A stretch of 44,574 nucleotides of DNA from Bacilli bacterium. Its GTDB lineage: Bacteria > Bacillota_I > Bacilli_A > RF39 > UBA660. Positions within the stretch are counted from its first letter, which is position 1; the number at the start of each line of letters is the position of its first letter. The stretch is taken from contig JAFUBW010000003.1 of the NCBI GenBank assembly GCA_017459965.1, positions 1-44,574 of the forward strand, written 5' to 3'. Below are positions 20,410 through 44,574 of the stretch, one piece after another. The notes under the pieces are model-generated. The model searched no databases and was not told the DNA's origin. It saw only the letters and a program-made list of their open reading frames with translations. Made by a program: the position numbers and the translations under genes.

Positions 20410-20433
20410 TTTAATGTTATGGAGGTAATCACT

Positions 20434-22464
20434 TTGAAACAAAAAGTAAAGAATATTATAAGAAAAATAAAAAAATTTAATTATAAATATTATTTTAATA
20501 CAAGTATATTATTTTTTACATTCGTAATAACAAATTTAATAAATGGTATGTTATTAAGATTTTTTACTGTACATAATTATTTTGCTATTAAACCAATACT
20601 TGCTGATTTAGCACTTATATTATTACTTGGATCATTTGTATATTTATTTAAACCAAAAAATAGATTTAAGTATTTACTAATAGTATCATTAATATTTAAT
20701 GTTATATGTATAGTTAATTCACTTTATTATACATATTATATGTCATTTGCGTCTTTTTCATTAATTGCAGTTTCCCTAACTGTTGTAGATGTTGGAGATG
20801 CAGTTACAAAAAATGTAATGCAACCAAAAGACTTTATATTTTTATGGCAAATAATAACACTTTTTATAGTACATGCTAAATTAAAGAAAAAAGGCCATTA
20901 TGTAAGAGTTGCGTCAAAAGAAAATAAGAAAAAAAGGTTTACAGGTACAATAATATCTGCTATATGCGTATATGCATTATTCTTTGCGACAGTAACATCT
21001 GTTGAATATTCAAGGCTTGCTAAACAATGGAATAGAGAATTCTTAGTTTCTAAATTTGGAGTATATACATATCAGTTAAATGATTTATTTAAAAGTTTAG
21101 ATGCTAAATTTAATACATTATTTGGATATGATAATGCAGCAAAAGAATTTAGAGATTACTATAGTATTAAAGAAGCACATAAATCTAATGAATATACTAA
21201 TATGTTTAAAGATTATAATTTAATATTAATACATGCTGAAAGTATTCAAAATGTAGCATTAAGACAAACATTTAATGGACAACAAGTTGCTCCTAACTTA
21301 AATAGATTAAAAGATGAAGGTATATACTTTAGTAATTATTATGCTCAAGCATCTTCTGGAACATCTTCAGATTCTGAATTTACTATTTCAACATCATTAT
21401 TACCTGTAACTAATGGGGCGGTTGCTATTAGTTATTGGAATAGGGAATATGAAACAATTCAAAAATTATTAAAAAATCAAGGATATAGAACTATAAGTAT
21501 GCACGGTAATACAGGAAGTTTTTGGAATAGAATTAATTTTCATAATTCACTTGGTTATGACAAGTTTTATAGTAAATCAGATTATAATATAGATGAAGTT
21601 ATAGGATTGGGAATATCTGATAAATCATTCTTTTCTCAATCTGTTGATATATTAAAAAAAGAACATGAAGAATATGGTAAATTTATGGCAACACTTATAA
21701 TGCTTTCAAACCATACTCCGTTTGATGAAATAGATAAATATGGAGAATTTCCTGTTGATATAAAAGAAGAAGTAACAACAACAAACGAACTTGGTGAACA
21801 AATAACAGAAACTAAGTCATATCCATATATGGAAGAAACAAAATTAGGTAACTATTTTAAATCAGTTCATTATGCCGATAGCGCTATTGGTGAATTAATG
21901 ACTAAATTAGATGAAAATGGATTGCTTGATAAATCAATTGTTGTTATATATGGTGATCATGATGCAAAACTTCCAAAATCAGATTTTGTTAGATTATATA
22001 ATTATGATAAAGAAATAGATGATATTAAATCAAAAGAAGATGAAACATATATAGATGTGGATTATTTCAAATATGAACTAGATAGATCCGTACCATTCAT
22101 TATATGGTCTAAAGATAAAAAATTATCTAAAACTATTGATACAGCTATGGGAATGTATGATGCTGCACCTACTGTAGAGAATATGCTTGGAGTAATTCCA
22201 ACATATAATATAGGTAATGATATAATGAATTTAAATGATAATATCGTAGTATTTCCTAATGGCAATTGGGTAACAAATAATATTTATTATAATAGTCAAA
22301 AAGATCAATATAAGATATTAAATATGAATTATGTAATTAATAATGATGAAATATCAAAGAATAATGAAATTGCATCTAAAAAATTAAATATATCAAATGA
22401 TATAATACTATATGATTTAATTAAAAATGAAAAAGATAAATTACAAAGGGTAGAAGGTGAGTAA
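20434..22464 (+). CDS. ltaS: LTA synthase family phosphoglycerol transferase
   Basis: LtaS-type enzymes transfer glycerol-phosphate from phosphatidylglycerol to growing lipoteichoic acid on the outer face of the membrane. Seen: five N-terminal transmembrane helices, a linker, and an extracellular sulfatase-fold domain with the nucleophile T310 in SSGTSSDSEF, LSNHTPFD and the metal-binding VVIYGDHDAKLP. Length 676 is normal. I prefer the TTG at 20434 because GGAGGT lies 7 nt upstream. The in-frame ATG at 20419 would overlap that Shine-Dalgarno and has none of its own. The C-terminal 70 residues (after NLNDNIVVF) form a small tail beyond the catalytic domain. It overlaps the SD of the next gene and is part of an envelope operon. 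Confidence 0.92.
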   Translation: MKQKVKNIIRKIKKFNYKYYFNTSILFFTFVITNLINGMLLRFFTVHNYFAIKPILADLALILLLGSFVYLFKPKNRFKYLLIVSLIFNVICIVNSLYYTYYMSFASFSLIAVSLTVVDVGDAVTKNVMQPKDFIFLWQIITLFIVHAKLKKKGHYVRVASKENKKKRFTGTIISAICVYALFFATVTSVEYSRLAKQWNREFLVSKFGVYTYQLNDLFKSLDAKFNTLFGYDNAAKEFRDYYSIKEAHKSNEYTNMFKDYNLILIHAESIQNVALRQTFNGQQVAPNLNRLKDEGIYFSNYYAQASSGTSSDSEFTISTSLLPVTNGAVAISYWNREYETIQKLLKNQGYRTISMHGNTGSFWNRINFHNSLGYDKFYSKSDYNIDEVIGLGISDKSFFSQSVDILKKEHEEYGKFMATLIMLSNHTPFDEIDKYGEFPVDIKEEVTTTNELGEQITETKSYPYMEETKLGNYFKSVHYADSAIGELMTKLDENGLLDKSIVVIYGDHDAKLPKSDFVRLYNYDKEIDDIKSKEDETYIDVDYFKYELDRSVPFIIWSKDKKLSKTIDTAMGMYDAAPTVENMLGVIPTYNIGNDIMNLNDNIVVFPNGNWVTNNIYYNSQKDQYKILNMNYVINNDEISKNNEIASKKLNISNDIILYDLIKNEKDKLQRVEGE

Positions 22465-22465
22465 T

Positions 22466-23122
22466 ATGAGTAAAAATAAAAGAAAAGGCAAGAAAAAAAT
22501 TAGAAGAATAGTTTTATTTGTTATAGTTCTTATTATTGCAGGTGTTTTAGTTTTTATGGCATTAAATAATTCAAATAATAAACAAACTGATGTAAAAAAG
22601 AAAAAAGTAGTAGATAAAATTGATGATTTTGATTATTCTGTTTCAGAAACTGATACTAAATTATTTAAAGATGAGTTTAAAAAATTAAAAACAGAATTAT
22701 CAAAAGACGAAGTAGATAATAAAAAATATTCTGAGTTAGTTGCTAAATTATTCATAATAGATTTCTTTACTTTAGATAATAAGATGACTAAGAATGATGT
22801 AGGTGGGGTTCAATTTGTATATAGTAAATACAAAACTTCATTTATAGATAAAGCTCGTGATGAATTTTATAAATATTTAAAAAATAATTTAGATGGTAAA
22901 AGAAATCAAGATTTACCTAAAGTAAGTAAAATAACTGTAGAATCATCTGAAGAAGTAAATGCTTCATCAGAATTATCTGGAAGTGACTTTTCTTCAATAG
23001 ATCAAGCTTATAAAGTTAATTTATCATGGGAATATGAAGAGGATTTAGGATATCAGAAAAATGCAACTGTTATAGTAGTAAAAGATGATGATAAATTTTC
23101 AGTTGCTAAGTTATCTAATTAA
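22466..23122 (+). CDS. Bitopic membrane protein of unknown function between ltaS and the LCP gene
   Basis: The 218 residues comprise a highly basic cytoplasmic N-terminus (MSKNKRKGKKKIRR), one transmembrane helix at about 14-34, a Lys/Asp-rich linker and an extracytoplasmic domain. Its end (QAYKVNLSWEYEEDLGYQKN, then ATVIVVKDDDKFSVAKL) looks like the beta-rich fold seen in small wall-associated domains. I recognise no family. The ATG lies just after the ltaS stop and is preceded by AAGGTG inside ltaS. Its position between ltaS and the LCP gene, with overlaps on both sides, suggests a partner in teichoic acid or polysaccharide assembly; that is inference. Confidence 0.75.
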   Translation: MSKNKRKGKKKIRRIVLFVIVLIIAGVLVFMALNNSNNKQTDVKKKKVVDKIDDFDYSVSETDTKLFKDEFKKLKTELSKDEVDNKKYSELVAKLFIIDFFTLDNKMTKNDVGGVQFVYSKYKTSFIDKARDEFYKYLKNNLDGKRNQDLPKVSKITVESSEEVNASSELSGSDFSSIDQAYKVNLSWEYEEDLGYQKNATVIVVKDDDKFSVAKLSN

Positions 23123-23133
23123 TGGAGGTAAAT

Positions 23134-25194
23134 ATGACAAGAAAAGAATTAAAAAGAGAAAAACTAAAAGCTAAAGAAAAAAAACATAAAGGATTTAATG
23201 TTTTCGTAGGTTTCTTACTTGGGATGTATTTAACAATATCTGGTTATTTAATATATAATTTATATAATCTAACTGGTATTGAAGATTTAATTAGATATAT
23301 TATAATGGGTATTCTAATTATTTCAGATTTATTCTTAATAGTAAAATACTTTAAAATGAAAAGAAAAACATTACTTAGAAAATATATTATATTTACATTA
23401 GTATTATTAATATTTGGTGGTTTACAATTCTTTATAGGTTACACAATAAATAAAGGATTAAATGTAATAGATAAAATATCGAATAAAGAATATAAAATAT
23501 ATAAAACAAGTTTAGTAGCACTTAAAGATGGAAATATACAAAAAGTATCTGATATAACTGATTCTACTAAAATAGGTAGGGTAAGTGATGAAGATGATAT
23601 TGAAAATAATGTACTATCTAAACACATAATGGAAAAAGATGATATTAGTGAGGATCAAATAGTAGATTATGATGATCCAATAACATTACTTTATGATTTA
23701 TATGAGAAAAAAGATATAGAAGCAGCTTTCATTTCAGGTAGTTATGTAGATATTTATAAAACTATGCAAAAATTTGAGAATATAAGTGAAGATTTAATAG
23801 AACTTGATAAATATTCAAAGAAAATGAAAGTTAAAAAAGAAAAAGAAACAATGGCTTCTACAAAGAGTATATCAGAACCATTTACTATGCTTTTAATGGG
23901 TGTGGATACTCAAGGTGATATAACAGAAACAAGTGGTTTAGGGGATTCATTAACACTTGTAACTTTTAATCCACAAACTTTAAATGTTACAATACTTTCT
24001 ATACCTAGAGATACATTTGTACCAATAACATGTTATAGAAATGTTAGAAGTAAAATAACACATGCAGCATCTGGTGGAGATAAATGTATGATTTCTACAA
24101 TTGAAAATTTCTTTGATGTAGATATAGATTATTATGTAAAAATTAATTTCTCTGGTTTAATTAAAATAGTTGATGCACTTGGAGGAATAGATGTAGAAGT
24201 ACCATATTCATTCTGTGAAAGTGATGAAAATAGAACATTTAAAAATCCAATATTCCTAGAAAAAGGATATCAACATTTAGATGGAAGACAAGCACTTGGT
24301 TTATCTAGAAATAGAAAAACATATCCAACATGTGGTGCTAAATGGAATCAAGGAACAAGAAATGACTTTGTAAGGGGTCAAAATCAACAACTTGTAATAA
24401 ATGCAATTATAAATAAGGCAAAAACAATACGAAGTGTTGATCAATTCTATGCACTTTTAGATGCAGTAGGTGGTAGTATTGTTACTAATATGGATAGAAA
24501 ACAAATATTAGCGTTCTATAACATATTTAAAAATATATTAGTATATAGTTCAGATTTGACAGATGATAATAATATTATTGATATGCAAAAAATATATCTA
24601 AATGGTAGTGGTGCAATGATACAAGATGGTATTATGACAAGTATGAATTTATATGAATATATACCTTCTACTCAAAGTTTAAATGCAATTAAAAAAGCTA
24701 TGAAAGTAAATTTAGGTTTAGCAGAGGATACACCTAAAAAAGAATTTAGTTTCTCAGCTGATAAACCATATGAACAAGAAGTAATAGGTAAAAATTTATC
24801 TGGTGGCATAGCATCTTATCCAACAGTTCCAACAACTACTGAAAGTGATAATAAATGTACTGGTGATAATGAAGAGTTAGGTGCAGATAAGAAAACTTGT
24901 GTATGTAAAAATGGATATACTAGAACAGATGGAGTATGTACTAAGAAAGAAGAAAAAACATGTACAGCACCATATGAATTATCTGGTGATAAACAATCTT
25001 GTTTATGTCCAACATGGAATGGATATGTTGAATCAAATGGCACTTGTACTTCTAGTTCAGGAGACTCAGGTTCAGGAAGTACTGATTCAGGATCAACAGA
25101 TTCAGGTTCAGGAAGTACTGATTCAGGATCAACAGATTCAGGTTCATCAAGTGGATCTACTGATTCAACTTCTACAGATACTACAACACCATAA
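23134..25194 (+). CDS. LCP (LytR-CpsA-Psr) family protein with Cys-rich and Ser/Gly/Asp/Thr repeat tail
   Basis: LCP enzymes attach teichoic acids or capsular polysaccharide to peptidoglycan. Seen: three N-terminal transmembrane helices (about 15-105); an accessory region; and the LCP domain with LLMGVDTQGD, SIPRDTFVPI, KITHAASGGD, DALGGIDVEVPYSF, YQHLDGRQAL and RNDFVRGQNQQ. The arginines that bind the pyrophosphate lipid are therefore present. Past the LCP domain come two EGF-like Cys-rich modules (CTGDNEELGADKKTCVCKNG and CTAPYELSGDKQSCLCPTWN), then a low-complexity tail of Ser, Gly, Thr and Asp. These modules are not usual in LCP proteins. The ATG at 23134 follows GGAGGT; the ATG at 23122 lies within that signal. 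It ends with a strong terminator. Confidence 0.92.
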   Translation: MTRKELKREKLKAKEKKHKGFNVFVGFLLGMYLTISGYLIYNLYNLTGIEDLIRYIIMGILIISDLFLIVKYFKMKRKTLLRKYIIFTLVLLIFGGLQFFIGYTINKGLNVIDKISNKEYKIYKTSLVALKDGNIQKVSDITDSTKIGRVSDEDDIENNVLSKHIMEKDDISEDQIVDYDDPITLLYDLYEKKDIEAAFISGSYVDIYKTMQKFENISEDLIELDKYSKKMKVKKEKETMASTKSISEPFTMLLMGVDTQGDITETSGLGDSLTLVTFNPQTLNVTILSIPRDTFVPITCYRNVRSKITHAASGGDKCMISTIENFFDVDIDYYVKINFSGLIKIVDALGGIDVEVPYSFCESDENRTFKNPIFLEKGYQHLDGRQALGLSRNRKTYPTCGAKWNQGTRNDFVRGQNQQLVINAIINKAKTIRSVDQFYALLDAVGGSIVTNMDRKQILAFYNIFKNILVYSSDLTDDNNIIDMQKIYLNGSGAMIQDGIMTSMNLYEYIPSTQSLNAIKKAMKVNLGLAEDTPKKEFSFSADKPYEQEVIGKNLSGGIASYPTVPTTTESDNKCTGDNEELGADKKTCVCKNGYTRTDGVCTKKEEKTCTAPYELSGDKQSCLCPTWNGYVESNGTCTSSSGDSGSGSTDSGSTDSGSGSTDSGSTDSGSSSGSTDSTSTDTTTP
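25069..25140 (+). repeat. Two perfect 36-nt tandem repeats in the LCP tail
   Basis: Two identical 36-nt copies (25069-25104 and 25105-25140) encode GSGSTDSGSTDS twice, followed by a partial third copy. The repeats are in frame, so slippage would change tail length without disrupting the protein. Confidence 0.9.
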
Positions 25195-26942: not shown

Positions 26943-27004
26943 TTGACAAAATTAGTCAAAATTTTTTTAATTATCTTTATAACAAATTTCTATAATGGTA
27001 TAAT
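26943..27004 (+). promoter_or_regulatory. Two tandem promoters of the glucosaminidase gene
   Basis: The distal promoter is TTGACA (26943-26948), a 17-bp spacer and TTTAAT (26966-26971). The proximal one is an extended -10 TGGTATAAT (-10 at 26999-27004) 26 bp before the start. The distal -35 is part of a TTTGAC/GTCAAA inverted repeat (26942-26960). Confidence 0.6.
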
Positions 27005-27030
27005 TATTTTAAGAATAAGGAGGAATATTT

Positions 27031-28998
27031 ATGAAAAAAGTATTATTTGTTATATTATCTTTTTGCATTATTTTTCTTCCGATGAATTCTGTAAAAGCTG
27101 ATAATAATACTTTTATAAAAGGTGTTGTTACAGGTAGTGGGGTATCTGTTAGAACAGGACCTTCTAAAAATTATTCTTTAGTAAAAAATGATATAAATGA
27201 ATCAATTTATTTATCAAAACCAGAATCTGTAGAAGTATTAGGTTCTACAAATGGCTGGTATCAAATAAAGTTTTTATATAGTGGTTTTATATATACTGGT
27301 TATATTAGTGCAGATTATTTAAGAGTTACCACAGTAACTATAGATAATAGTTATAAAAATAGTCTTATGGCAAAAGGTTTTCCAGAAAGTTATGCAGAGA
27401 AATTAACTAAATTACATGCACTGCATCCAAATTGGAATTTTATAGTATCTAATACAAATTTAAATTGGAATGATGCAGTTAATGGAGAAGCAACACCAGT
27501 TAGTAAAAATCAAATTCAATCAACAAATGCAACTCTTAGATCTACCGAAGATGGAGCATATTCAAATGGAACATATACACAATACGGTACAGGGTGGTAT
27601 GCTGCTAGTAAGCAAACAATAGGTTATTTTATGGATCCAAGAAACTTCTTAGATGAAGGACATATATTCATGTTTGAAGCATTAGATTATTCATCAAGTA
27701 ATCAAGATGTATCTACAATTCAAAATATGTTAAATGGAAGTTTTATGAGTGGATCATTTAATTATAATAATCAATCTTGGACATATGCCAATACATTCTT
27801 AACAGCAGGTAGTCAAAATAATATTAATCCAATTCATTTAGTAAGTAGAATATTACTTGAACAAGGTTCAACTTGTACAGCTCTTACTTGTGGAACTGGT
27901 TATAATGGGAATTATGTAGGTTACTATAATTTCTTTAATGTAGGTGCAAGTGGGAATTCTGATTATGATATTATCATAAGTGGTTTAAGACATGCATATA
28001 ATAAAGGATGGAATAATCAATATTTATCGATTGTAAATGGATCTGCAACAATAAGTAATGATTATATAGCAAGAGGACAATCAACTCTTTATTATCAAAA
28101 ATTTAATACAATTACACCATCTTATTATATAAATCAATATATGCAAAATGTAAAAGCACCTTATACAGAAGCTTATTCAACATATACTAGTTATTATAAT
28201 TCTAATTTACTTGATAGCGCATTTACTTTTAAAATACCTGTTTATAATAATATGCCAGATGCAACTACATTATCAACTAGTGAAAATGCCACAAATACAT
28301 TAAGTAGTTTAAGTATATCTAATTGTGAACTTAGTCCTTCATTTACATCTTCAGCTACTAGTTATACATGTAATGTGGATGAAAGTATTAATTTTGTAGA
28401 GGTTAAAGCAACTAAAACTAGTGCTTACTCAACAGTAAAAGGAACTGGAAATATTAGCTTAACTTCAGATAATAATAGAGTGGTTGTATCAGTAACAGCT
28501 GCTAATGGAAATGTACGAGATTATGTAGTTACAATAAAAAAAATACAAAAAGATATTAGTAAAGTAACACCAGCTGATATAATAAGTTATATAGGTTATA
28601 ATAATAATAGTAATGTATTAAGTAAAATAACTGAAGGAACTGATATATCTAATATAATTAGTAATATTAAAGATAAATATTCACAAGCAAACGTAATAAT
28701 TAAAGATAAAAATAATAATCAAAAAACAAAAGGAAAAATTTCTACTAATGATAAAATTATTATAACAATTAATAATCAAACTATAGAGTATTCCACAGTA
28801 ATATATGGTGATGTATCAGGAGATGGAATTATAGATATAACTGATTTACTAAAAGTACAAAAACATATTAAAAATGTAAGTGTTTTATCGGGAAATTATT
28901 TAACAGGTGCTGATACAGATAAAAATGGAAATGTTGATATAATAGATTTACTAAAGGTACAAAAACATATTAAAGGAATAGCTACTATATCTCAATAG
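27031..28998 (+). CDS. Secreted glucosaminidase (autolysin) with SH3b, cadherin-like and dockerin domains
   Basis: The 655 residues comprise a signal peptide (about 1-24, ending SVKA); an SH3b domain (VSVRTGPSKNYSLV, about 35-105); and an endo-beta-N-acetylglucosaminidase domain of the LytG/GH73 type (about 108-400) with probable catalytic E277 in SRILLEQG, plus NPIHL and NFFNVGASGN. A cadherin-like beta-sandwich follows (about 428-508), then a linker and a type I dockerin at about 592-655. The dockerin has two calcium-binding loops, GDVSGDGIIDITDLLKVQKH and DTDKNGNVDIIDLLKVQKH. Dockerins bind cohesins and are best known from cellulosomes. Here the next gene encodes a membrane-anchored cohesin-like protein, so the enzyme is probably held at the cell surface by that partner. 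It cuts peptidoglycan glycan strands. Start: ATG after AAGGAGG. Confidence 0.92.
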   Translation: MKKVLFVILSFCIIFLPMNSVKADNNTFIKGVVTGSGVSVRTGPSKNYSLVKNDINESIYLSKPESVEVLGSTNGWYQIKFLYSGFIYTGYISADYLRVTTVTIDNSYKNSLMAKGFPESYAEKLTKLHALHPNWNFIVSNTNLNWNDAVNGEATPVSKNQIQSTNATLRSTEDGAYSNGTYTQYGTGWYAASKQTIGYFMDPRNFLDEGHIFMFEALDYSSSNQDVSTIQNMLNGSFMSGSFNYNNQSWTYANTFLTAGSQNNINPIHLVSRILLEQGSTCTALTCGTGYNGNYVGYYNFFNVGASGNSDYDIIISGLRHAYNKGWNNQYLSIVNGSATISNDYIARGQSTLYYQKFNTITPSYYINQYMQNVKAPYTEAYSTYTSYYNSNLLDSAFTFKIPVYNNMPDATTLSTSENATNTLSSLSISNCELSPSFTSSATSYTCNVDESINFVEVKATKTSAYSTVKGTGNISLTSDNNRVVVSVTAANGNVRDYVVTIKKIQKDISKVTPADIISYIGYNNNSNVLSKITEGTDISNIISNIKDKYSQANVIIKDKNNNQKTKGKISTNDKIIITINNQTIEYSTVIYGDVSGDGIIDITDLLKVQKHIKNVSVLSGNYLTGADTDKNGNVDIIDLLKVQKHIKGIATISQ

Positions 28999-29006
28999 TA
29001 GCTATT
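28977..29006 (+). promoter_or_regulatory. Perfect intercistronic hairpin between dockerin and cohesin-like genes
   Basis: The 12-bp stem AATAGCTACTAT / ATAGTAGCTATT (28977-28988 and 28995-29006) with a 6-nt loop contains the stop codon of the upstream gene. No T tract follows. It is more likely an mRNA-stability or partial-termination element than a full terminator. Confidence 0.6.
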
Positions 29007-29025
29007 TAATATAAGGAGTGAAAAT

Positions 29026-30492
29026 ATGAATAATTATTTAAAAAGAATATTAATAATATTAATTTTAATAATACCATTTTTTTGCATAAAAAATGTATAT
29101 GCAGCATCTTCAACTATAAAATTAACAACTTCTAATTCTAACGTAAGTTTAAATTCTATCTTTACTGTAAATGTTACAGTTTCAGAAGAAGGTGGAAAAT
29201 TAGGTAGTTTTGAATATTCGATAACTCATGATAGTAAATATTTATTACTTATAAGTGGTGAAGAATATCAAAAAGATGTTGGAGAAGGAGATGGAAAATC
29301 CAAAACTTATACACTTAAATATAAAGCAATAAGTAATGGTCAAACAATAATAAAAGTAAATGATTCAAGAGTTGTAGATTGGGATACAGAAAAAGATATA
29401 AGTGTAAATAATGGTAGTTTAACTATTAATATTGGTAGTACAACTAATACAAATACAACTGAATCAAAATCATCTGATAATTCTTTAAAATCTTTATTTG
29501 TAGAAGGTTTTAATATTAGTCCAAAATTTAATAAAGATACATTAGAATATAATGTAAATCTATCATCAGATACTTTAAAAATAAAAATAATCGCAGAGAA
29601 AAATGATGATACTGCTAGTATAACAGGTGATGGAGAAGTAGATGTTAAAGAAGGAAATAATACAATAAATGTGGTAGTAACTGCAGAAAATGGTGCAACA
29701 AGAACATATAAAATAAATGCTTATGTACAAGAACAAGCACCTATAACAGTTAAGATAAAAGGTAAAAAATATACAGTATTAAAAAAACTTATAGGTATAA
29801 ATTTACCAAGTGGATTTAAAGAAAAAACAATCAAAATAAATGATACCGAAGTAGATGCATTTTATAATGACAAATTGAATTTTACTATAGTTGGGTTAAA
29901 AGATTCAATAGGTAATATTAGTTTATATTTATATGATGAAACTCTAAATAAATATACAAAATATTCGCCAATAGTATCAGATGGTTTAAGTATTATAATA
30001 TTAAATGCACCTGAAAATAAAATTCCACATCGATATTATAAAACTAAATTTTCATATAATGGAGATTTAGTAACAGGTTATACACTTTCTGAAAAATCTG
30101 ACTTTAGAGTAGTGTATGGGATTAATACAGAAACTGGATCAAAAGGATTATATTTATATGATATTAAAGAAAATACTATTCAAAGATTCTATAATGATCA
30201 AGTAAATATATATGTAGAATTAATTCAAAAAATAAAATATGCATTTATAATTTTAGGTAGTTTTATATTACTATTAACATTAATAATAATTTCACTACTA
30301 TCTAAAAATATTAAATTTAAAAAGAAATATATTGAAAAAAGATTAAGCAAAATAGATAATCCAATATATACAGATGATATAAAATATCAAGACTTAGAAG
30401 GTACAACAACTTTAAAAAAAGTAGAAAAATATAAAAATAAAGATAAACCAACTAAAAAGCGTAAAAGAGAAAAGACATTTTTAGATGAATAA
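29026..30492 (+). CDS. Membrane-anchored protein with cohesin-like and cadherin-like domains
   Basis: The 488 residues comprise a signal peptide (ending VYAA), a cohesin-like beta-sandwich at about 26-142, a cadherin-like domain at about 154-235, another beta-rich segment, a C-terminal transmembrane helix at about 407-428 and a basic cytoplasmic tail (TKKRKREKTFLDE). The cohesin-like part has the expected order: a Ser/Asn-rich first strand, FTVNVTVSEEGGKLGSFEYS, then GDGKSKTYTLKYKAISNGQT and VVDWDTE. The last two blocks recur nearly verbatim in the protein starting at 42832. Direct neighbourhood to the dockerin-bearing glucosaminidase suggests that this is its receptor. The cohesin call rests on pattern, not on a search. 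Start: ATG after AAGGAGTG. Confidence 0.8.
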   Translation: MNNYLKRILIILILIIPFFCIKNVYAASSTIKLTTSNSNVSLNSIFTVNVTVSEEGGKLGSFEYSITHDSKYLLLISGEEYQKDVGEGDGKSKTYTLKYKAISNGQTIIKVNDSRVVDWDTEKDISVNNGSLTINIGSTTNTNTTESKSSDNSLKSLFVEGFNISPKFNKDTLEYNVNLSSDTLKIKIIAEKNDDTASITGDGEVDVKEGNNTINVVVTAENGATRTYKINAYVQEQAPITVKIKGKKYTVLKKLIGINLPSGFKEKTIKINDTEVDAFYNDKLNFTIVGLKDSIGNISLYLYDETLNKYTKYSPIVSDGLSIIILNAPENKIPHRYYKTKFSYNGDLVTGYTLSEKSDFRVVYGINTETGSKGLYLYDIKENTIQRFYNDQVNIYVELIQKIKYAFIILGSFILLLTLIIISLLSKNIKFKKKYIEKRLSKIDNPIYTDDIKYQDLEGTTTLKKVEKYKNKDKPTKKRKREKTFLDE

Positions 30493-30615: not shown

Positions 30616-32913
30616 ATGAATAAATATGATAAATTTTTAAATAAATTAATGCCAATAATACTGATATTATTTCCATTTATAGATGTATTAACATCACTTC
30701 AAATAAGAAATAATATTGGTTTTATTTCTGTAGGGACATTAATTAGAGGTATATTTTTAATATTAATAATTATTTATTTAAAAAAGAAAAATGTTAATAA
30801 TAAAATATTATTTGTATTTGGTCTATATTTTATTTTAGAATTAGGATATATTTTCTTATTTACTAAAAGTAATATATATTCAGAAATATCAAATATATTT
30901 GAAATATTTTATTTACCATTTTTAATATATTTCTTTAAAAAATATGATAATAAAAAAATAGATGATAAATATATATTTATAATATATTTAATATATTTAA
31001 ATTTAATATTAATACCAAGATTATTTGGTATAGGTTTTAATATAAGTGAAATATATAAAAATAAACATGGGTATTGTGGTTTATTTTATTCTGGTAATGA
31101 AATAAGTGCTATATTACTTGGACTTTTACCAATAGTATTAAACTATGTCTTTAAATTAAAAAATTATATTATTAAAATATTCTTTTATATAGAATTACTT
31201 GCAGTAATTATTTTACTTGGAACTAAAACATTATTCTTTGGAAGTATAATTGTTGTAGGTTATTATTTTATAAAATATTTAAAAAATAATTTTAAAAAAA
31301 TGAAAAAAATATACAAATTATTATGGATATTTATACCAATTTTATTTATAACTAGTATAATTATATATCTTCCAAAAACATCAGTATATAAAAATATAAA
31401 AGAACAATTAAAATATTACGAAATAGATGAAATGGATGAATATATTAGTGAAAATATGCTAGATAGAGTAGTATTTTCATCAAGACTATCGTTCTTAAAA
31501 AAAGTTAATAATGAATATATAAATAAAAATAATAAATATGGATTTATATATGGTTTATCTAGAGAAAGAATACTTCAAATTAAAGATATAGAAATAGATA
31601 TATTTGATATATTTTATTCAGTAGGTATATTTGGAAGTTTTATATATATATTAATGATGATTTATGCATTAAAAGGTGTTCATTTAAGAAAATATTATAA
31701 ATTTAGTTTTATATTGTTTATATTAATGAGTTTATTTTCAGGACATATATTAATTAAACCAATGGTCTCAATTTATATTGCTATTTTATTTATATTAAAT
31801 AAAAATGATGTAAAGATAGAAAAGAAAAAAATATTATTAGTATCTAATATGTATCCATCAAAAAAATATAAACATTATGGCTCATTTGTAAAAAATGTAA
31901 AATGTGTTTTAGAAGATAATGGTTATATAGTAGATAAATCTGTAATGTATAAAAAGGATAATATAATAGGTAAAATTATTTCTTACTTATCACTTTATTT
32001 TGGAACAATACTTAAAGGAATGTTTAACAATTATGATTATATATATGTACATTTTATATCACATTCTGCTTGGCCAGCAGTTTTCTTAAAGAAAACAAGT
32101 AAGAATATTTGTTTAGTATTTAATGCACATGGTAATGATGTTGTAATGGATTTACCAAGTGAAGAAAAGAATATTAAAAGAAGTAAAAAATATATACCAT
32201 ATGCTGATAAGGTAGTTGTACCTTCTAATTACTATAAAAATGTTATGATAAAAAAATATAATGTAGATGAAAATAAAATATTTGTATATCCATCAGGTGG
32301 AGTTAATACAGATATGTTTGTTAATATTGATATGTCTATATCTAAAAAAGAATGTAATCTAAAAGAAGAATATAATTACATTGGATATGCTTCTAGAATA
32401 GAAAAAAATAAAGGATGGGATACATTCCTAAAAGCTATTAAATTATTAAAAGATGAAAATAAAATTGGTAATAAAAGATTCTTAATTGTAGGTTCTGGTT
32501 CTGAAGAAAAAGATATGAATAAAATGATGAAAGAACTAGATATTGTTGATTATATAGAAACAAGAAGTTTAGTTTCACCTGAAGAATTAGTTAATATATA
32601 TAATAGTCTTCAAATATTTGTATTTCCTACATATAGAGAAAGTGAAAGTTTAGGACTTGTAGGTTTAGAAGCAATGTCTTGTGAAACATTTGTAATCGCA
32701 TCTGAAAACTTTGGACCAACTGATTATGTAAGAAATATGAAAAATGGTCTGTTCTTTAAAGGACAAGATTTTGTAGATTTAAAAAATAAAATATTAGAAT
32801 ATGATAAATTAAATAATGAACAAAGAAAGAAAATACTTAAAAAAGCAAGAGAAACTGCGTTAAAATATGATGTTAGAAATACAAAAGATGAAATATTAAA
32901 AGTTTTTAAATAA
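30616..32913 (+). CDS. Fusion of O-antigen polymerase/ligase-like membrane protein and family 4 glycosyltransferase
   Basis: Residues 1 to about 395 form a polytopic domain of about ten helices, with a long extracytoplasmic loop near 255-330 (YLPKTSVYKNIKEQLKYYEI onward). This is typical of Wzy polymerases or WaaL-type ligases. From about 406 (KKILLVSNMYPSKKYKHYGS) follows a GT-B glycosyltransferase of the GT4 type, with FNAHGNDVV, YIGYASRIEKNKGWDTFLKA, FLIVGSGSEE and the donor-binding TYRESESLGLVGLEAMSCE. The reading frame is continuous with no internal Shine-Dalgarno at the junction. The two activities are normally separate proteins. It probably adds a sugar to the lipid-linked repeat unit and polymerises or transfers it; that is inference. 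Start: ATG after ATAGGTG. Confidence 0.85.
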   Translation: MNKYDKFLNKLMPIILILFPFIDVLTSLQIRNNIGFISVGTLIRGIFLILIIIYLKKKNVNNKILFVFGLYFILELGYIFLFTKSNIYSEISNIFEIFYLPFLIYFFKKYDNKKIDDKYIFIIYLIYLNLILIPRLFGIGFNISEIYKNKHGYCGLFYSGNEISAILLGLLPIVLNYVFKLKNYIIKIFFYIELLAVIILLGTKTLFFGSIIVVGYYFIKYLKNNFKKMKKIYKLLWIFIPILFITSIIIYLPKTSVYKNIKEQLKYYEIDEMDEYISENMLDRVVFSSRLSFLKKVNNEYINKNNKYGFIYGLSRERILQIKDIEIDIFDIFYSVGIFGSFIYILMMIYALKGVHLRKYYKFSFILFILMSLFSGHILIKPMVSIYIAILFILNKNDVKIEKKKILLVSNMYPSKKYKHYGSFVKNVKCVLEDNGYIVDKSVMYKKDNIIGKIISYLSLYFGTILKGMFNNYDYIYVHFISHSAWPAVFLKKTSKNICLVFNAHGNDVVMDLPSEEKNIKRSKKYIPYADKVVVPSNYYKNVMIKKYNVDENKIFVYPSGGVNTDMFVNIDMSISKKECNLKEEYNYIGYASRIEKNKGWDTFLKAIKLLKDENKIGNKRFLIVGSGSEEKDMNKMMKELDIVDYIETRSLVSPEELVNIYNSLQIFVFPTYRESESLGLVGLEAMSCETFVIASENFGPTDYVRNMKNGLFFKGQDFVDLKNKILEYDKLNNEQRKKILKKARETALKYDVRNTKDEILKVFK

Positions 32914-32922
32914 GGAGTATTT

Positions 32923-33786
32923 ATGAAAACAGGAATAGTTATTTTAAACTATAATGATTATGATACTACTAAAGATATGATTGAAAGAATTAAGAGTTAT
33001 AAATGTTTAAATCACATATTAATTGTGGATAATAAAAGTACTGACAGATCTTATAGTAAACTAAAAAAATTAGAAAATAAAAATATTGAAGTTATTAAAA
33101 CAGATGATAATAAAGGATATGCATATGGAAATAACTTTGGTGTAAGATATTTAGATAGTAAATATAAAATAGATAATATTATAATATCTAATCCAGATGT
33201 TATAGTATCTGAAGATGTTATAGATACTTTAATAAATGATTTAAAAAATAAAGAAGATATATCAATAATCGCACCAATAGTTGAAGAAAAAGGAATAATC
33301 TCTAGAGGATGGAAGTTACCAGGTTTTAAAGAAGATTTATTATCAAATATAAATTATTTTCATAAATATTCAAAGAAATTAATGAGTTATGATGAAGAAT
33401 ATTATAATAATAAATTATCTAGAGTAGAGGCAGTTCATGGATGTTTCTTTATGATAAGATTAAAAGATTTTAAAGAAGTAGGTTTGTTTGATGAAAATAC
33501 ATTCTTATATTATGAAGAAAATATATTAGGTAGAAAATTAAAAGAAAAAGGAATGTTTGTTTACATAGATAATACAGTAAAAGTAATTCATGATCTATCA
33601 GTAAGTGTTGATAAAACATATAATTCTATAAAGAAATATAAAATACTTAAAAATAGTCAAAAATATTATGAAAAGAACTACAATAATCTTAATATTTTTG
33701 GTATTATATTATTAAGAATATTTTACTACATAAGTTTAATAATATCTTATATAGTAATATTTATTACAAACATAAAAAGGAAGTAA
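32923..33786 (+). CDS. Family 2 glycosyltransferase, rhamnosyltransferase-like
   Basis: This is a 287-residue GT-A enzyme: ILNYNDYDTTKDMIERI at the N-terminus, HILIVDNKSTDRSY, then KGYAYGNNFGVRY and NPDVIV as the metal/nucleotide-sugar motif. VEAVHGCFFMIRLKDFKEVG and FLYYEENILGRKLKEKG form the acceptor side. The pattern is that of WbbL/RgpB-like rhamnosyltransferases, which suits the dTDP-rhamnose genes downstream. A C-terminal hydrophobic helix (about 258-283) would attach it to the membrane. Start: ATG after TAAGGAG. It lies 9 nt behind the fusion gene and 3 nt before the next glycosyltransferase, so all three are one operon. Confidence 0.85.
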   Translation: MKTGIVILNYNDYDTTKDMIERIKSYKCLNHILIVDNKSTDRSYSKLKKLENKNIEVIKTDDNKGYAYGNNFGVRYLDSKYKIDNIIISNPDVIVSEDVIDTLINDLKNKEDISIIAPIVEEKGIISRGWKLPGFKEDLLSNINYFHKYSKKLMSYDEEYYNNKLSRVEAVHGCFFMIRLKDFKEVGLFDENTFLYYEENILGRKLKEKGMFVYIDNTVKVIHDLSVSVDKTYNSIKKYKILKNSQKYYEKNYNNLNIFGIILLRIFYYISLIISYIVIFITNIKRK

Positions 33787-33789
33787 AAC

Positions 33790-34956
33790 ATGAAGAATAT
33801 AATAATAATTGGATCAAGAGGTTATGAAAGTGAATATGGCGGATGGGAGACTTTTGTAACTAATTTAATTAATAATTATAATGATAAGGATACTAGATTC
33901 TATGTACCAGAGCTTACTCATAAGAGAGAAAGTCAAATAGAAATAAGAAATGGTGTCATATGTAAAAAAATATATGTTCCAAAACAAGGCTTTGTAACTA
34001 TGTTTACATTTGTTATAAAAGCAGTTCTTTATTATAAAAGATATATTAAAAAGGAAAAATTAGATAATGTAATTATGTATATTTTAGGTTGTAGAGTAGG
34101 CCCTTTATTTTCTTTAATACATAAAAAATTAAATAAAATGGGAGTAAAAATAATAATTAATCCAGACGGACTTGAATGGACTAGAGAAAAATGGTCTTGG
34201 TGGATAAAGAAATGCTTTAAAATATCTGAAAAAACAATGATTAAATCATCAAACTATGTAGTTTGTGATTCAAAAGCAATTGAAAATTATGTAAAAGAAA
34301 AATATAAAAAATATGATAAAGATACTACTTTTATTGCTTATGGGGCATATCTAAATGACATAAAAGATATTGATAAAAAAACAAAAGAATTTATGGATAA
34401 AAATGATATTAAACCAAGAGATTATTATTTAATAGTAGGAAGATTTGTACCTGAAAATAACTATGAACTTATAATAAATGAATTTATGAAAGCAAACACA
34501 TCAAGAGATTTAGTAATAATATCTAATGTAGAAAAAAATAAATTTTATAAAAAATTAAAAGAAAAAACAAATTTTGATAAAGATAAAAGAATTAAATTTG
34601 TTGGACCAGTTTATGATGATGAAATACTTAGAAGACTTAGAAAAAATGCTAAAGGATATATACATGGTCATTCTGCAGGTGGAACAAATCCATCACTTCT
34701 TGAGGCACTTAGTATAACAGATGTTAATATATTATATGATGCTATATATAATGTAGAAGTAGGTGGAGAAGGTGCATTATATTTCTCAAATGAAGAAGAT
34801 TCATTAAAAAAAGTTATTGAGAAAGTAGAAAAGTTTAAATCAAAAGAAAACAATATGTATAGTGAACTTGCTAAAAAAAGAATTACTGATGAATATACAT
34901 GGGAAATAGTAGTCAAAAAATATAAAAAATTATTTAGTAAATTATTAGAAAAATAA
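33790..34956 (+). CDS. DUF1972 family rhamnosyltransferase (WchF/RgpA-like)
   Basis: This is a 388-residue GT-B enzyme, the size of streptococcal WchF (Cps2T) and RgpA. The family-specific start IIIIGSRGYESEYGGWETFV (usual form 'GsrGiPA.YGGFETfv') marks DUF1972. NPDGLEWTREKWSWWIKKC and VVCDSKAIENYV follow, then GHSAGGTNPSLLEAL as the donor-binding loop. Characterised relatives add the first rhamnose, from dTDP-L-rhamnose, to the lipid-linked primer sugar of capsule or rhamnan. The dTDP-rhamnose operon starts directly after it, which supports this reading. Start: ATG after AGGAAG. It is closed by a terminator. Confidence 0.87.
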   Translation: MKNIIIIGSRGYESEYGGWETFVTNLINNYNDKDTRFYVPELTHKRESQIEIRNGVICKKIYVPKQGFVTMFTFVIKAVLYYKRYIKKEKLDNVIMYILGCRVGPLFSLIHKKLNKMGVKIIINPDGLEWTREKWSWWIKKCFKISEKTMIKSSNYVVCDSKAIENYVKEKYKKYDKDTTFIAYGAYLNDIKDIDKKTKEFMDKNDIKPRDYYLIVGRFVPENNYELIINEFMKANTSRDLVIISNVEKNKFYKKLKEKTNFDKDKRIKFVGPVYDDEILRRLRKNAKGYIHGHSAGGTNPSLLEALSITDVNILYDAIYNVEVGGEGALYFSNEEDSLKKVIEKVEKFKSKENNMYSELAKKRITDEYTWEIVVKKYKKLFSKLLEK

Positions 34957-34986
34957 ATAAAGGCTTTACCTACCTTTATTTTTTTT
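34955..34986 (+). terminator. Intrinsic terminator of the glycosyltransferase operon
   Basis: The stem AAATAAAGG / CCTTTATTT (34955-34963 and 34973-34981) is followed by a T tract that runs into the next promoter. Confidence 0.8.
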
Positions 34987-34994
34987 GTTATAAT
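34986..34994 (+). promoter_or_regulatory. Extended -10 promoter of rmlACDB
   Basis: TGTTATAAT (-10 at 34989-34994) lies 22 bp before the rmlA start. There is no clear -35 box; the T tract of the terminator occupies that position. Confidence 0.65.
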
Positions 34995-35016
34995 ACAAAT
35001 AGGGAGGTTTTTTATT

Positions 35017-35913
35017 ATGAAAGGAATTATACTTGCAGGAGGGTCTGGAACAAGACTTTATCCTATCACACAGGCAATTAGTAAACAAGTAATGCCTATA
35101 TATGATAAACCAATGATTTATTATCCACTTTCAGTACTTATGATGGCAGGAATAAAAGATATAATGGTTATAACAACTAAAGAAGATCAACCAAATTTTA
35201 TTAAATTATTAAAAGATGGTTCACAATTTGGGATTAATATTGAATATAAAATTCAACCATCACCAGATGGACTTGCTCAAGCATTTATTTTAGGAGAAGA
35301 ATTTATTGGTAATGATCCATGTGCAATGGTGCTAGGAGATAATATTTATTTTGGTAATAATTTTAAAAATATGCTTGTTAATGCAAAAGAATATGCAGAA
35401 AACGGGAAAGCATCTATATTTGGATATCAAGTAAGAGATCCACAAAGGTTTGGAATAATGGAAATAGATGAAAATCAAAATGTATTAAGTGTTGAAGAAA
35501 AACCACAAAATCCAAAATCTGATTATGCAATCACAGGTTTATATTTTTATCCTAAAGGTGTTTCAGAAATGGCAAAACAGGTTAAACCTTCAAAAAGAGG
35601 TGAACTTGAAATAACAACTCTTAATGATATGTATTTGAAAAATGGTAACTTAAGAGCAGAACTTCTAGGTGGAGGTTTTACATGGTTTGATACAGGTACA
35701 ATTGATAGTATGATGGAAGCAAATAGTATGATAAGACTTGTTCAAACAAATAATGGTAAAATAATATCATGTCCAGAAGCAATTGCTTATAATCAAGGAT
35801 GGATCGATAAAGATACATTGCTTGAAGCAGCTACTTTAATGCAAAAAAATGATTATGGTAAATATTTATTTAAAGTAGCAGAAAAAAACAAATCATTGAA
35901 ATTGGAGAAGTAA
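35017..35913 (+). CDS. rmlA: Glucose-1-phosphate thymidylyltransferase
   Basis: This enzyme catalyses the first step of dTDP-L-rhamnose synthesis: Glc-1-P plus dTTP gives dTDP-glucose. The nucleotide-binding signature GGSGTRLYPITQAISKQVMP is followed by YDKPMIYYPLS, then QPSPDGLAQAFILGE, the metal-site VLGDNIYFG, and GGGFTWFDTGT near the C-terminus. The length of 298 is normal. Start: ATG after AGGGAGG. It is the first of four contiguous genes in the order A-C-D-B, each within 10 nt of the next. The codon use is slightly less extreme than in the glycosyltransferases before it, as often seen for these well-expressed and conserved genes. Confidence 0.97.
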   Translation: MKGIILAGGSGTRLYPITQAISKQVMPIYDKPMIYYPLSVLMMAGIKDIMVITTKEDQPNFIKLLKDGSQFGINIEYKIQPSPDGLAQAFILGEEFIGNDPCAMVLGDNIYFGNNFKNMLVNAKEYAENGKASIFGYQVRDPQRFGIMEIDENQNVLSVEEKPQNPKSDYAITGLYFYPKGVSEMAKQVKPSKRGELEITTLNDMYLKNGNLRAELLGGGFTWFDTGTIDSMMEANSMIRLVQTNNGKIISCPEAIAYNQGWIDKDTLLEAATLMQKNDYGKYLFKVAEKNKSLKLEK

Positions 35914-35915
35914 TT

Positions 35916-36545
35916 ATGGAAATTAAAGAGGAATATATTAAAAGAGCAGAAGAAATTCAAAAATTAGATAGTTTTAAAACAATCAAAATAGAAGCAACAA
36001 ATTTAAAAGATTGTTATATTCTAACACCTATAAGATTTGGTGATGAAAGAGGCTTTTTTGAACAAACTGATATGTCAGCACTCAAAGATTTAGGTTTTAA
36101 AAATTTTGAAAAGTTAAATGAGTCAATGAGTTGTAAAGGTACAATTAGAGGAATGCATTTTCAAAAAAATCCTTATGCACAAACAAAAGTAGTAAGTTGT
36201 AAAATAGGGTCAGTACTTGATGTGGTTGTTGATATGAGAAAAGATTCTGAAACTTATGGAATGTGGACAAGTGTAGAATTAAATTTAGAAAATGGTAGAA
36301 TGCTATATGTACCAAGAGGATTTGCTCATGGTTTTGTAGCACTTAAGGATAATACTTTTTTTCAGTATTTAGTTGATAATGTATATAATAAAGAATCAGA
36401 AGCAGGTATTATTTGGAATGATCCTGATATAAATATAGATTGGCAATTTGATAAATATGGTATAGATAAACCAGTATTTTCTGAAAAAGATCAAAAGCAT
36501 TTAACATTAAAAGAATCACCAGATTATTTTAAGGAGGTATTATAA
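35916..36545 (+). CDS. rmlC: dTDP-4-dehydrorhamnose 3,5-epimerase with short N-terminal extension
   Basis: This is a cupin-fold epimerase, the third step of dTDP-L-rhamnose synthesis. Seen: FGDERGFFEQTD (usual FGDeRGfF.E), KGTIRGMHFQKNPYAQTKVV containing the catalytic His, SVLDVVVDMRKDSETYG and the YVPRGFAHGF motif. The protein has 209 residues against about 185 for most relatives. The first ~22 residues (MEIKEEYIKRAEEIQKLDSF) form a charged helix before the normal start of the fold. GGAGAAG in front of the ATG supports this longer start. It follows rmlA after 2 nt and its stop overlaps the rmlD start by one base. Confidence 0.95.
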   Translation: MEIKEEYIKRAEEIQKLDSFKTIKIEATNLKDCYILTPIRFGDERGFFEQTDMSALKDLGFKNFEKLNESMSCKGTIRGMHFQKNPYAQTKVVSCKIGSVLDVVVDMRKDSETYGMWTSVELNLENGRMLYVPRGFAHGFVALKDNTFFQYLVDNVYNKESEAGIIWNDPDINIDWQFDKYGIDKPVFSEKDQKHLTLKESPDYFKEVL

Positions 36546-37429
36546 TGAGATTTTTAGTTACAGGTGTAAAAGGACAATTAGGTTATGATGTAGTAAGAGA
36601 ATTAAAATCAAGAGGTTATAATGATGTTTTAGAATATGATATAGAGCAAATGGATATAACAGATGCAAGACAAGTAGAACAATGTATTGTAGGCAATGAA
36701 CCAGATGTAGTAATACATTGTGCAGCTTATACTGCAGTAGATAAAGCAGAAGATGAACCTGAACTTGCTGAAAAGATAAATGTTGCAGGTACAAAAAATA
36801 TTGCTGAAATGACAGAACTTATAGGTTGTAAGTTAATATACATATCAACAGATTATGTATTTGACGGAAGACAACCATTAAGTTATATATATGATGTAGA
36901 TGATAAAGTTAATCCGCAAAGTGTATATGGAAAAACTAAATATAAAGGTGAATTAGCTGCTAAAATTAATCCAAGATGCTTTATAGTAAGAACTTCTTGG
37001 GTATTTGGAATTAATGGTAATAATTTTGTTAAAACAATGTTAAAATTAGCCGAAACAAAAGATGAAATTAATGTAGTATCAGATCAATATGGATCACCTA
37101 CTTATACAGTTGACTTAGCAAAATTACTTGTAGATATGTCTTTAACATATAAATTTGGTACATATCATGCAAGTAATGAAGGTTATATTAGCTGGGCACA
37201 ATTTGCAGAGGAAATATTCAAAGTAAATAATATTGATGTGAAAGTAAATCATATTTCAACAAAAGAATATCCAACAAAAGCAAGAAGACCACATAATTCA
37301 TGCCTAAGTAAAATAAGTTTAACTAATAATGGATTTGAAAGACTACCAGATTATAAAGATGCTTTAATTAGATATTCTAAAGAATTAAAAGAGCAAAAAG
37401 AAAATGAAAAAAAATTAATATTAAAATAA
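36545..37429 (+). CDS. rmlD: dTDP-4-dehydrorhamnose reductase
   Basis: This short-chain reductase, the last step to dTDP-L-rhamnose, uses NAD(P)H. Seen: VTGVKGQLGYDVVREL (glycine-rich nucleotide site), HCAAYTAVDKAEDEPELAEK, ISTDYVFDG, and YGKTKYKGE with the catalytic Tyr-x-x-x-Lys, then VRTSWVFG. The length of 294 is normal, with a Lys/Glu-rich tail (ELKEQKENEKKLILK). Start: ATG after AAGGAGG, whose last codons lie in rmlC. It is coupled to rmlC by a TAATG overlap and followed by rmlB after 9 nt. Confidence 0.96.
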   Translation: MRFLVTGVKGQLGYDVVRELKSRGYNDVLEYDIEQMDITDARQVEQCIVGNEPDVVIHCAAYTAVDKAEDEPELAEKINVAGTKNIAEMTELIGCKLIYISTDYVFDGRQPLSYIYDVDDKVNPQSVYGKTKYKGELAAKINPRCFIVRTSWVFGINGNNFVKTMLKLAETKDEINVVSDQYGSPTYTVDLAKLLVDMSLTYKFGTYHASNEGYISWAQFAEEIFKVNNIDVKVNHISTKEYPTKARRPHNSCLSKISLTNNGFERLPDYKDALIRYSKELKEQKENEKKLILK

Positions 37430-37438
37430 GGAGTTTAT

Positions 37439-38458: not shown

Positions 38459-38459
38459 A

Positions 38460-42831: not shown

Positions 42832-44574
42832 ATGAAAAAAACAATAAAAAATATATTATTATTTATTATTTTAGTAATTGCTTTCATAATAAATAAAAAT
42901 AATGTATTTGCTTTATCAGCTAATATACAAATAACATCTGATAAAACTACATTTGATATAAATGATATAGTAAATGTGAATATAACAGTATCATCTGATG
43001 ATTCAAAATTAGGATCATATCAATTTGATGTTATAAATGATGATAGATTATCACTAGTAGAAGGTGAAAAGAAAGTTGTAGAAGTTGGAGATGGGTTAAT
43101 AACAACAAAAACATATCTATTTAAATATAAAGCATTATCATCAGGCACTTCAACTATAAAAGTTGAAAATATTAGAGTACTTGATTGGGATACAGAAAAT
43201 GAAATGTCATTAATTAATTCAAATCCTAATTTAAAAATTAATATAAATGAACCACCTAAATCACTAATAAATATAGATAGTCCTACAGCAAACTCTACAG
43301 TAACAGGTAACTTAACTGTTTTAGGCTGGGTAATGAGTACGTTAAAAGATAAAAACATTGAATTATATTTAGATAATAAAAAAATAGATGATGTAACATT
43401 TTCTGAAAGAGAAGACGTAATAAATGCAATAAATGGATATGGAGGAAAAGAAGAAAACCCAACTCCAGGTTTTAAATATGTAGTTGATAGTAAAACTCTA
43501 AAAAGCGGGAATCACACTTTAATAATTAAAATTATTAATTCTAATAATAATTCAACTATATGTGAAAAAAGTATAAATTTTAAAACAAAAACATATAATA
43601 CACATATTCAATTAGATGGACCTAAAAATGAAATTTTTTCAAAAAAGAAAATAAATATAGTAGGCTGGGTAATGAGTGAATATGCTAATAAAAAAGTAGA
43701 AGTATATATTGATAATAAAATGGTAGAAGACATAACATTTAATGCAAGAGAAGACGTAATAAAAGCAATAAGTGGATATGGAGGAAAAGAAGAAAATCCA
43801 ACTCCAGGTTTTTCAAAAACACTTTCAGCAAAAGATTATTCAGTAGGTAATCATATTATATTAATTAAAGTAATTAATAAAGATAATAATGAAGTATTAT
43901 CTTCAACACAAGATAGTTTTGTTATTAAAGAATTAAAAACAATAATAAATATAGATAGCCCATCACAATTAGTATCTACTAATTCAAATGTAAAAGTGGT
44001 AGGCTGGGCAATGAGTAATTATTCAAATAAAAAAGTAGAAATCTATATAGATGATAAAAATATAGATAATGTAACATTTAGTGCAAGAGAAGATGTAATA
44101 AAAGCAGTAAATGGATATGGAGGAAAAGAAGAAAATCCAACTCCAGGTTTCTCAGCAACATATGATTCAAATTTATTATCAGGTACATCACATAAAGTTA
44201 TAGTAAGAATTATTGATAAAGAAGATAATGAAGTATTAGATGAATCAATAAAATATTTTTCGACAGAAAAACCAAAAACAATAATAAATATAGACAGTCC
44301 ATCAAATACAATAGCAAGAAATTCAACAATAAAAATTCAAGGTTGGACAATGAGTACATTAAAAGAAAAAAATGTTGAAATTTATATAGATGATAAAAAG
44401 ATAGAAAATGTAACATTTAGTGAAAGAGAAGACGTAATAAAAGCAGTAAATGGATATGGAAATAGTGAACAAAATCCAACGCCAGGTTTCTCAGCAACAT
44501 ATGATTCTAATTTATTAACAAGTGGAACACATAAGGTAATAGTAAAAGTTATTGATAGTGTAAGCAATGAGGTA
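42832..44574 (+). CDS. Secreted surface protein with cohesin-like domain and 113-residue Ig-like repeats (3' end outside window)
   Basis: The frame is open from the ATG (after AAAGGAGGA) to the right edge: 581 residues with no stop, so the C-terminus and any anchor are missing. A signal peptide (KNILLFIILVIAFI...NNVFA) is followed by a cohesin-like domain at about 28-138 that shares KLGSY, GDG..TKTY.FKYKALSSGT and VLDWDTE with the protein at 29026. From about residue 142 come repeats of exactly 113 residues: three complete and a fourth cut at the edge. Each has GW(V/A/T)MS, (V/L)E(I/V/L)YID-type strands, the segment REDVI(K/N)A followed by GYG, and NPTPGF. The repeat resembles the beta-sandwich units of clostridial wall hydrolases and adhesins with 'sRpDV...GY...GF'. 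A surface scaffold or adhesin is likely by inference. Confidence 0.85.
   Translation, partial: MKKTIKNILLFIILVIAFIINKNNVFALSANIQITSDKTTFDINDIVNVNITVSSDDSKLGSYQFDVINDDRLSLVEGEKKVVEVGDGLITTKTYLFKYKALSSGTSTIKVENIRVLDWDTENEMSLINSNPNLKININEPPKSLINIDSPTANSTVTGNLTVLGWVMSTLKDKNIELYLDNKKIDDVTFSEREDVINAINGYGGKEENPTPGFKYVVDSKTLKSGNHTLIIKIINSNNNSTICEKSINFKTKTYNTHIQLDGPKNEIFSKKKINIVGWVMSEYANKKVEVYIDNKMVEDITFNAREDVIKAISGYGGKEENPTPGFSKTLSAKDYSVGNHIILIKVINKDNNEVLSSTQDSFVIKELKTIINIDSPSQLVSTNSNVKVVGWAMSNYSNKKVEIYIDDKNIDNVTFSAREDVIKAVNGYGGKEENPTPGFSATYDSNLLSGTSHKVIVRIIDKEDNEVLDESIKYFSTEKPKTIINIDSPSNTIARNSTIKIQGWTMSTLKEKNVEIYIDDKKIENVTFSEREDVIKAVNGYGNSEQNPTPGFSATYDSNLLTSGTHKVIVKVIDSVSNEV
43257..44574 (+). repeat. 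Tandem 339-nt coding repeats
   Basis: The GGATATGGA landmark recurs at 43435, 43774, 44113 and 44452, exactly 339 nt apart each time. The units are about 43257-43595, 43596-43934, 43935-44273 and 44274 to the edge. The NGYGGKEENPTPGF core is nearly identical at DNA level, while the linkers have diverged. Confidence 0.9.

Follow-up and report, generated by a model that had tools for sequence, protein, structure and literature searches.

Background

Cohesin and dockerin domains form a molecular clip known from cellulose-digesting bacteria. In the cellulosomal type I pairs (C. thermocellum 1ohz and 2ccl; C. cellulolyticum 2vn5 and 2vn6), dockerins with two Ca loops attach enzymes to multi-cohesin scaffoldins. 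In the open-licence PMC literature, cohesin-dockerin systems have been reported for cellulose, starch, and mucin, the last including an envelope-attached complex of gut bacteria, the Limousia mucinolysome (PMC12997984), which has multi-cohesin scaffoldins, many mucin-degrading enzymes, an LPxTG anchor, and no wall hydrolases. C. perfringens also has non-cellulosomal cohesins and dockerins (2vo8, 2jh2, 2w1n, and 2ozn), of which the cohesins ride on secreted glycosidases.

The placing and restraining of autolysins in bacteria is a long-standing question. In S. aureus, the glucosaminidase SagB is complexed with the membrane protein SpdC, a CAAX-protease-family integral membrane protein that holds and tunes the enzyme, releasing nascent peptidoglycan (6u0o; PMC12272431). 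Within the same open-licence PMC literature, we found no report of a membrane cohesin that holds a peptidoglycan hydrolase.

Here, we analyze a 44,574-nt stretch of DNA (hereafter the window), which makes up all of contig C10 in a draft genome (1.06 Mb, ~90% complete) and in which a secreted glucosaminidase with a dockerin (gene A) precedes a membrane-anchored cohesin protein (gene B). Relative to cellulosomal type I pairs, this pair joins a single enzyme to a membrane protein that has a single cohesin and is encoded next door; its predicted cargo is a peptidoglycan hydrolase, and its anchor is a transmembrane (TM) helix rather than a multi-cohesin scaffoldin.

A SagB-like glucosaminidase ending in a type I dockerin

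Gene A encodes, in order, a signal peptide, an SH3_3 domain, a GH73-like catalytic domain, a Cadherin-like domain (matched in 41 of 72 orthologues), a small linker domain, and Dockerin_1 (Table 1). The catalytic domain matched the folds of SagB, AtlE, Atl, and the C. perfringens autolysin at Z 19–21 in structure comparison, as well as the PDB sequences of SagB, Atl, and AtlE at E 3e-12 to 3e-9, and its putative catalytic glutamate is kept in at least 90% of orthologues; fold and glutamate together place A among the SagB/Atl-type GH73 glucosaminidases. A SagB-like NCBIfam match was also obtained (E 5e-17), with 62 bits versus the curated cut-off of 425 (NF052642), so that A is a relative of SagB and not an equivalog.

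At the C-terminus, PF00404 scored 37.9 bits, above its gathering cut-off of 22.9, and both Ca loops are intact (D-x-[S/D]-x-[D/N]-x3-D-x2-D at residues 594–605 and 628–639), which identifies a type I dockerin. Its fold matched 2ccl_B at Z 13.1 and rmsd 0.8 Å (C. thermocellum dockerins, 0.7–0.8 Å), and its two near-identical repeats are like those of the dual-mode dockerins of cellulosomal type I pairs. The original prediction, made from the sequence, of a secreted glucosaminidase ending in two dockerin calcium loops was borne out, as was its placing of the cohesin gene 27 nt downstream (28999–29025). This gap fits a single operon. Each gene has a good Shine-Dalgarno sequence, and promoter-like sites of the kind seen ahead of gene A were equally frequent in shuffled sequence. 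Around the pair (20419–25191 and 30616–39222) lie surface polysaccharide genes, including sulfatase-family, LytR-CpsA-Psr, O-antigen-ligase-like, glycosyltransferase, and nucleotidyltransferase genes.

Table 1 Features of genes A, B, and C and their flanks in the window
Feature	Position	Strand	Description or evidence
Promoter-like TTTATA-17-TATAAT, TG ahead of second hexamer	26976–27004	+	Consensus scan; weak
Shine-Dalgarno AAGGAGGA ahead of gene A	within 26976..27030	+	Sequence
Gene A	27031..28998	+	655 aa; secreted glucosaminidase ending in dockerin
SH3_3 domain, A residues 36–97	27136..27321	+	Pfam at cut-off; fold match
SagB/AtlE-type GH73 catalytic domain, A residues ~106–410	27346..28260	+	Structure comparison
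Putative catalytic Glu, E277 of A	27859–27861	+	Aligns with LLETGA of SagB
Cadherin-like beta-sandwich, A residues 424–503	28300..28539	+	Pfam E 2e-4, below cut-off
Type I dockerin, A residues 592–647, class LL..QK	28804..28971	+	PF00404 E 2e-9
Perfect 12-bp inverted repeat across A stop codon	28977..29006	.	Coding strand without T-run
Gene B	29026..30492	+	488 aa; membrane-anchored cohesin protein; own Shine-Dalgarno AAGGAG
Cohesin domain, B residues 26–142	29101..29451	+	AlphaFold2 fold, profile, orthologue PF00963 matches
Cadherin-like beta-sandwich, B residues 165–233	29518..29724	+	Pfam E 1.5e-9
Third extracellular beta domain, B residues 239–390	29740..30195	+	AlphaFold2, confident
TM helix (~406–430), then Lys-rich cytoplasmic tail of B	30241..30489	+	AlphaFold2 model
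Gene C	42832..44574	+	Cohesin-like domain (~28–138) and Big_7-type repeats (Pfam); cut by contig end

A divergent cohesin on a membrane-anchored stalk

Gene B encodes a signal peptide, a cohesin-like domain, a Cadherin-like domain (matched in 73 of 73 orthologues), a third beta domain for which a Pfam search found no family match, a single TM helix, and a tail rich in basic residues, with a hydrophobic segment at ~375–412 in nearly all orthologues. The AlphaFold2 model of residues 26–142, built from 73 orthologues, had pLDDT mostly >92, and its three best structural matches among all chains were C. perfringens cohesins (2vo8, Z 13.2, rmsd 2.3, 112 residues aligned; then 2w1n, 12.9, and 2jh2, 12.8), with cellulosomal cohesins making up most of the next-ranked matches; TRAP subunits, whose beta-sandwich is related, reached Z 11.9. 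Like those C. perfringens proteins, B belongs to a setting without a cellulosome, whereas its cohesin sits on a dedicated membrane protein that has an autolysin as its neighbor.

By sequence, PF00963 gave no Pfam match in B itself but matched directly in 16 of 73 orthologues (E<0.01), and a PDB profile search with 57 orthologous domains yielded 21 matches, mostly cohesins, of which the best 13 were all cohesins (best E 8e-5). By phmmer against PDB, B matched only DSCAM, weakly, a result overruled by profile and fold. Modelled fold and sequence kinship thus establish residues 26–142 as a cohesin, of which B is a divergent member. The predicted cohesin-like domain on a C-terminal membrane helix was accordingly recovered both as a structural match (Z ~13) with one TM helix and by profile, the latter through the orthologues and not through B alone.

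The gene pair is conserved in the family

In a family sample of 145 genomes from 144 genera, in which the dockerin, the cohesin, the catalytic domain of A, and B were each searched independently, full B was present in 95 genomes, the catalytic domain in 88, and both in 87, leaving about one third of the sampled genomes without B. A dockerin lay directly upstream of 89 of 97 B places, 18–85 nt before the matched region; conserved adjacency in related genomes had been suggested as a check. Starting from the other side, the next gene was a full B homologue, usually 4–26 nt away, at 74 of 80 loci chosen by their dockerin, a choice in which the presence of B was not selected for; among the 80 are two loci without the full pair (L141 and L138) and four without a neighbor in the fetched stretch (L075, L076, L100, and L112). 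Where a genome had a single dockerin hit, that hit preceded B in 52 of 63 cases, which points to a dedicated pair and not to a cellulosome. Separately, genome G066 (L143) keeps B after an A homologue that has several SH3-like repeats and no dockerin, and this A is perhaps bound to the wall instead.

The enzyme is exchanged while dockerin and cohesin stay

Full B is not confined to this family: it is also present elsewhere in the class, where 18 of 20 loci fetched from other families had a dockerin open reading frame directly beside it. The enzyme at most scanned loci of these families is a PF01832 glucosaminidase, with GH25 in L169, Amidase_2 in L180, and a ComEC-like metallo-beta-lactamase in L173, and L182 retains the SagB-like catalytic type. 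Replacement is also seen within the family, in which G014, G096, G110, and G113 carry PF01832 in place of the SagB-like domain. Dockerin and cohesin are retained while the catalytic domain varies. In one lineage, at three of the loci (L172, L175, and L179), the dockerin-glucosaminidase/B pair is followed directly by ftsA-like and ftsZ genes downstream, an adjacency that hints at a role in growth or division.

Paralogues of B have other partners. In G015 and G142, one pairs with an M6-type peptidase in reversed gene order, and at L151, L152, L153, and L154, the paralogue adjoins a dockerin-bearing M6-type peptidase in the opposite order, with the peptidase type confirmed by Pfam in L151 and L152.

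Such partners, together with the metallo-beta-lactamase, would suit a clip that serves as a general surface-enzyme anchor for nutrient- or host-directed degradation and not for the cell's own wall. We consider this rather unlikely, given that most sampled partners are of peptidoglycan-hydrolase types (SagB-like in 88 genomes; PF01832, GH25, and Amidase_2 elsewhere) and that three loci adjoin ftsA-ftsZ.

Co-evolution of dockerin and cohesin between neighboring genes

Distance matrices of dockerin and cohesin were correlated over 70 pairs (r 0.58; partial r 0.56 with all other domains removed), against a maximum of 0.26 in 1000 permutations, and control couplings were 0.08 for the dockerin with its own catalytic domain, 0.10 for the dockerin with the preceding domain, and 0.08 for the cohesin with the next domain. 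With new alignments, the partial r was 0.49 in the family and 0.35 over all 88 pairs, while the 18 pairs outside the family, taken alone, gave no significant coupling (partial r 0.17).

Covariation was concentrated, on the dockerin side, at loop positions 13, 17, and 18 of each repeat and, on the cohesin side, in strands 3, 5, and 6, with enrichment on these strands over the others at p 0.001. The signal stands at the level of strands and not of residue contacts, as 88 pairs are too few, the two repeats are non-independent, and gap states feed mutual information. B's other two domains gave a much weaker signal in this test, near the shuffled level. Strands 3, 5, and 6 are three of the four strands in the dockerin-binding face of type I cohesins. 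Counting against a reading as contacts, residues 64 and 66 alternate with the dockerin-contacting positions of C. thermocellum. In both cohesin fold and covariation on these strands, the pair resembles the cellulosomal type I pairs.

Two sequence classes were apparent, one combining an LL..QK dockerin with a KS-type cohesin and the other a YV..KN dockerin with a shortened W-x-E/D-type cohesin, and dockerin and cohesin classes agreed in 84 of 88 pairs; one of the four discordant pairs, L063, is from the same genus as the window genome. When mapped on the best tree built from the remaining domains of B, the dockerin class switches 16 times, at least 5 of them on well-supported branches, and the cohesin class follows in 4.6 of 5 supported switches and never goes the opposite way (sign test p 0.06, the lowest value attainable with only five events). 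The clearest case is the pair L167/L171, of the same genus code, in which identity in A is 86% without the dockerin but 44% for the dockerin itself, and identity in B is 81% without the cohesin but 24% for the cohesin itself, as expected of a natural double swap in which dockerin and cohesin were both exchanged; L170 and L178 show a milder form of the same pattern.

On the DNA, the 3′ end of A, which encodes the dockerin, adjoins the 5′ end of B, which encodes the cohesin, so recombination of one block could add to this co-switching, and L167/L171 do resemble a segment exchange. Taken to its end, such block exchange at the gene junction would make A and B merely co-inherited operon neighbors that evolved in parallel. 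This seems highly improbable to us, as equally close domains within one gene are uncoupled, the covariation falls at the recognition positions of the dockerin and in strands 3, 5, and 6 of the cohesin, and dockerin and cohesin stay when the enzyme changes.

A proposed tether for a wall hydrolase

We infer that A and B very probably form a module in which the dockerin of A docks on the cohesin of B and thereby tethers the hydrolase to the membrane. The basis for this comprises the domains and their folds, the adjacency, the co-evolution with class co-switching, and the enzyme swapping reported above, which largely support the original prediction that the pair pins a peptidoglycan hydrolase to the membrane face. 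Counting against the module are the discordant L063, the B of G066 beside a dockerin-less A, and two further cohesin proteins that could take A.

As proposed, A would be exported and its C-terminal dockerin caught by the N-terminal cohesin of B, itself anchored in the membrane by one helix, in a putatively calcium-dependent manner. The two further beta domains of B would then serve as a stalk for non-covalent display of the glucosaminidase, which would act on the membrane-facing side of the wall, adjoining newly made peptidoglycan and its new glycan strands, possibly in wall growth or division. Such a tether might also limit autolysis. By analogy, the pair would parallel SagB-SpdC, which shares A's catalytic family and cuts nascent glycan strands, with an exchangeable clip replacing the dedicated membrane partner; B differs from SpdC in being a single-pass beta-domain stalk with a proposed dockerin-cohesin link.

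Overall, this looks like a widespread and apparently undescribed way for cells to clip wall-remodelling enzymes to their membrane. If true, cohesin-dockerin pairing reaches beyond nutrient-degrading complexes to the wall of the cell itself, and the question of autolysin restraint gains a defined, testable tether, for which L167/L171 provide a natural swap experiment. Further, finding cohesin and dockerin genes in gut metagenomes need not imply cellulosomes, although PMC7060530, e.g., draws this inference. The co-switching pairs also offer a ready supply of orthogonal cohesin-dockerin clips.

Other cohesins and dockerins in the genome

The dockerin of A is the only full one in the ~90% complete genome, and cohesins are single per protein, with no multi-cohesin scaffoldin; a cellulosome was rejected on this basis, which extends genome-wide the earlier remark that no cellulose or other plant-polymer gene is visible. 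The second cohesin-like protein foreseen at the end of the window, gene C, does carry such a domain, which shares 43% identity with that of B and is closer to it than any B orthologue compared, and is therefore probably of the same class. C is a possible second docking site for A, and its sequence makes it plausible that it competes with B for A or shares A with it. Contig C20 (L003:619–1863) encodes another membrane-anchored cohesin protein, one that Pfam does recognize and that has two Cadherin-like domains; its cohesin gave no match to that of B at E 1e-3.

With three cohesin-type proteins in the genome and the closeness of C's cohesin to B's, the dockerin of A might instead dock mainly on C or L003, B being only one of several interchangeable sites in a small surface scaffold. 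We hold this to be quite unlikely: the conserved neighbor of A is B and neither of the others, the co-evolution is with the cohesin of B, and the L003 cohesin is unlike it. Docking on B remains our preferred reading.

On contig C1 of genome G000 (L002:1411–1659), an 82-aa membrane protein carries a single dockerin loop, DVNGDGQVNALDLLKVQKYI, of the LL..QK class as in A. Its surroundings are phage-like, with an integrase and an HNH endonuclease, and relatives 87–92% identical occur in four IMG/VR phage contigs. A broader joint reading, unlikely as a whole, would have cohesin-dockerin pairing serve mainly as a housekeeping clip for interchangeable wall hydrolases, with a recognition code that changes repeatedly and in both partners together and a phage single-loop protein that exploits the cohesin of B; in this same speculative reading, the loop of L002 would occupy that cohesin and free or block the autolysin, and the B-type membrane protein would be linked to growth or division across several families of the class.

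Finally, frames of ~2,400–3,000 aa in which a cohesin and a dockerin lie within ~1 kb were observed in G010:C8, G029:C27, G083:C6, G126:C10, G131:C4, and others, and these very large proteins are possibly self-assembling surface proteins.
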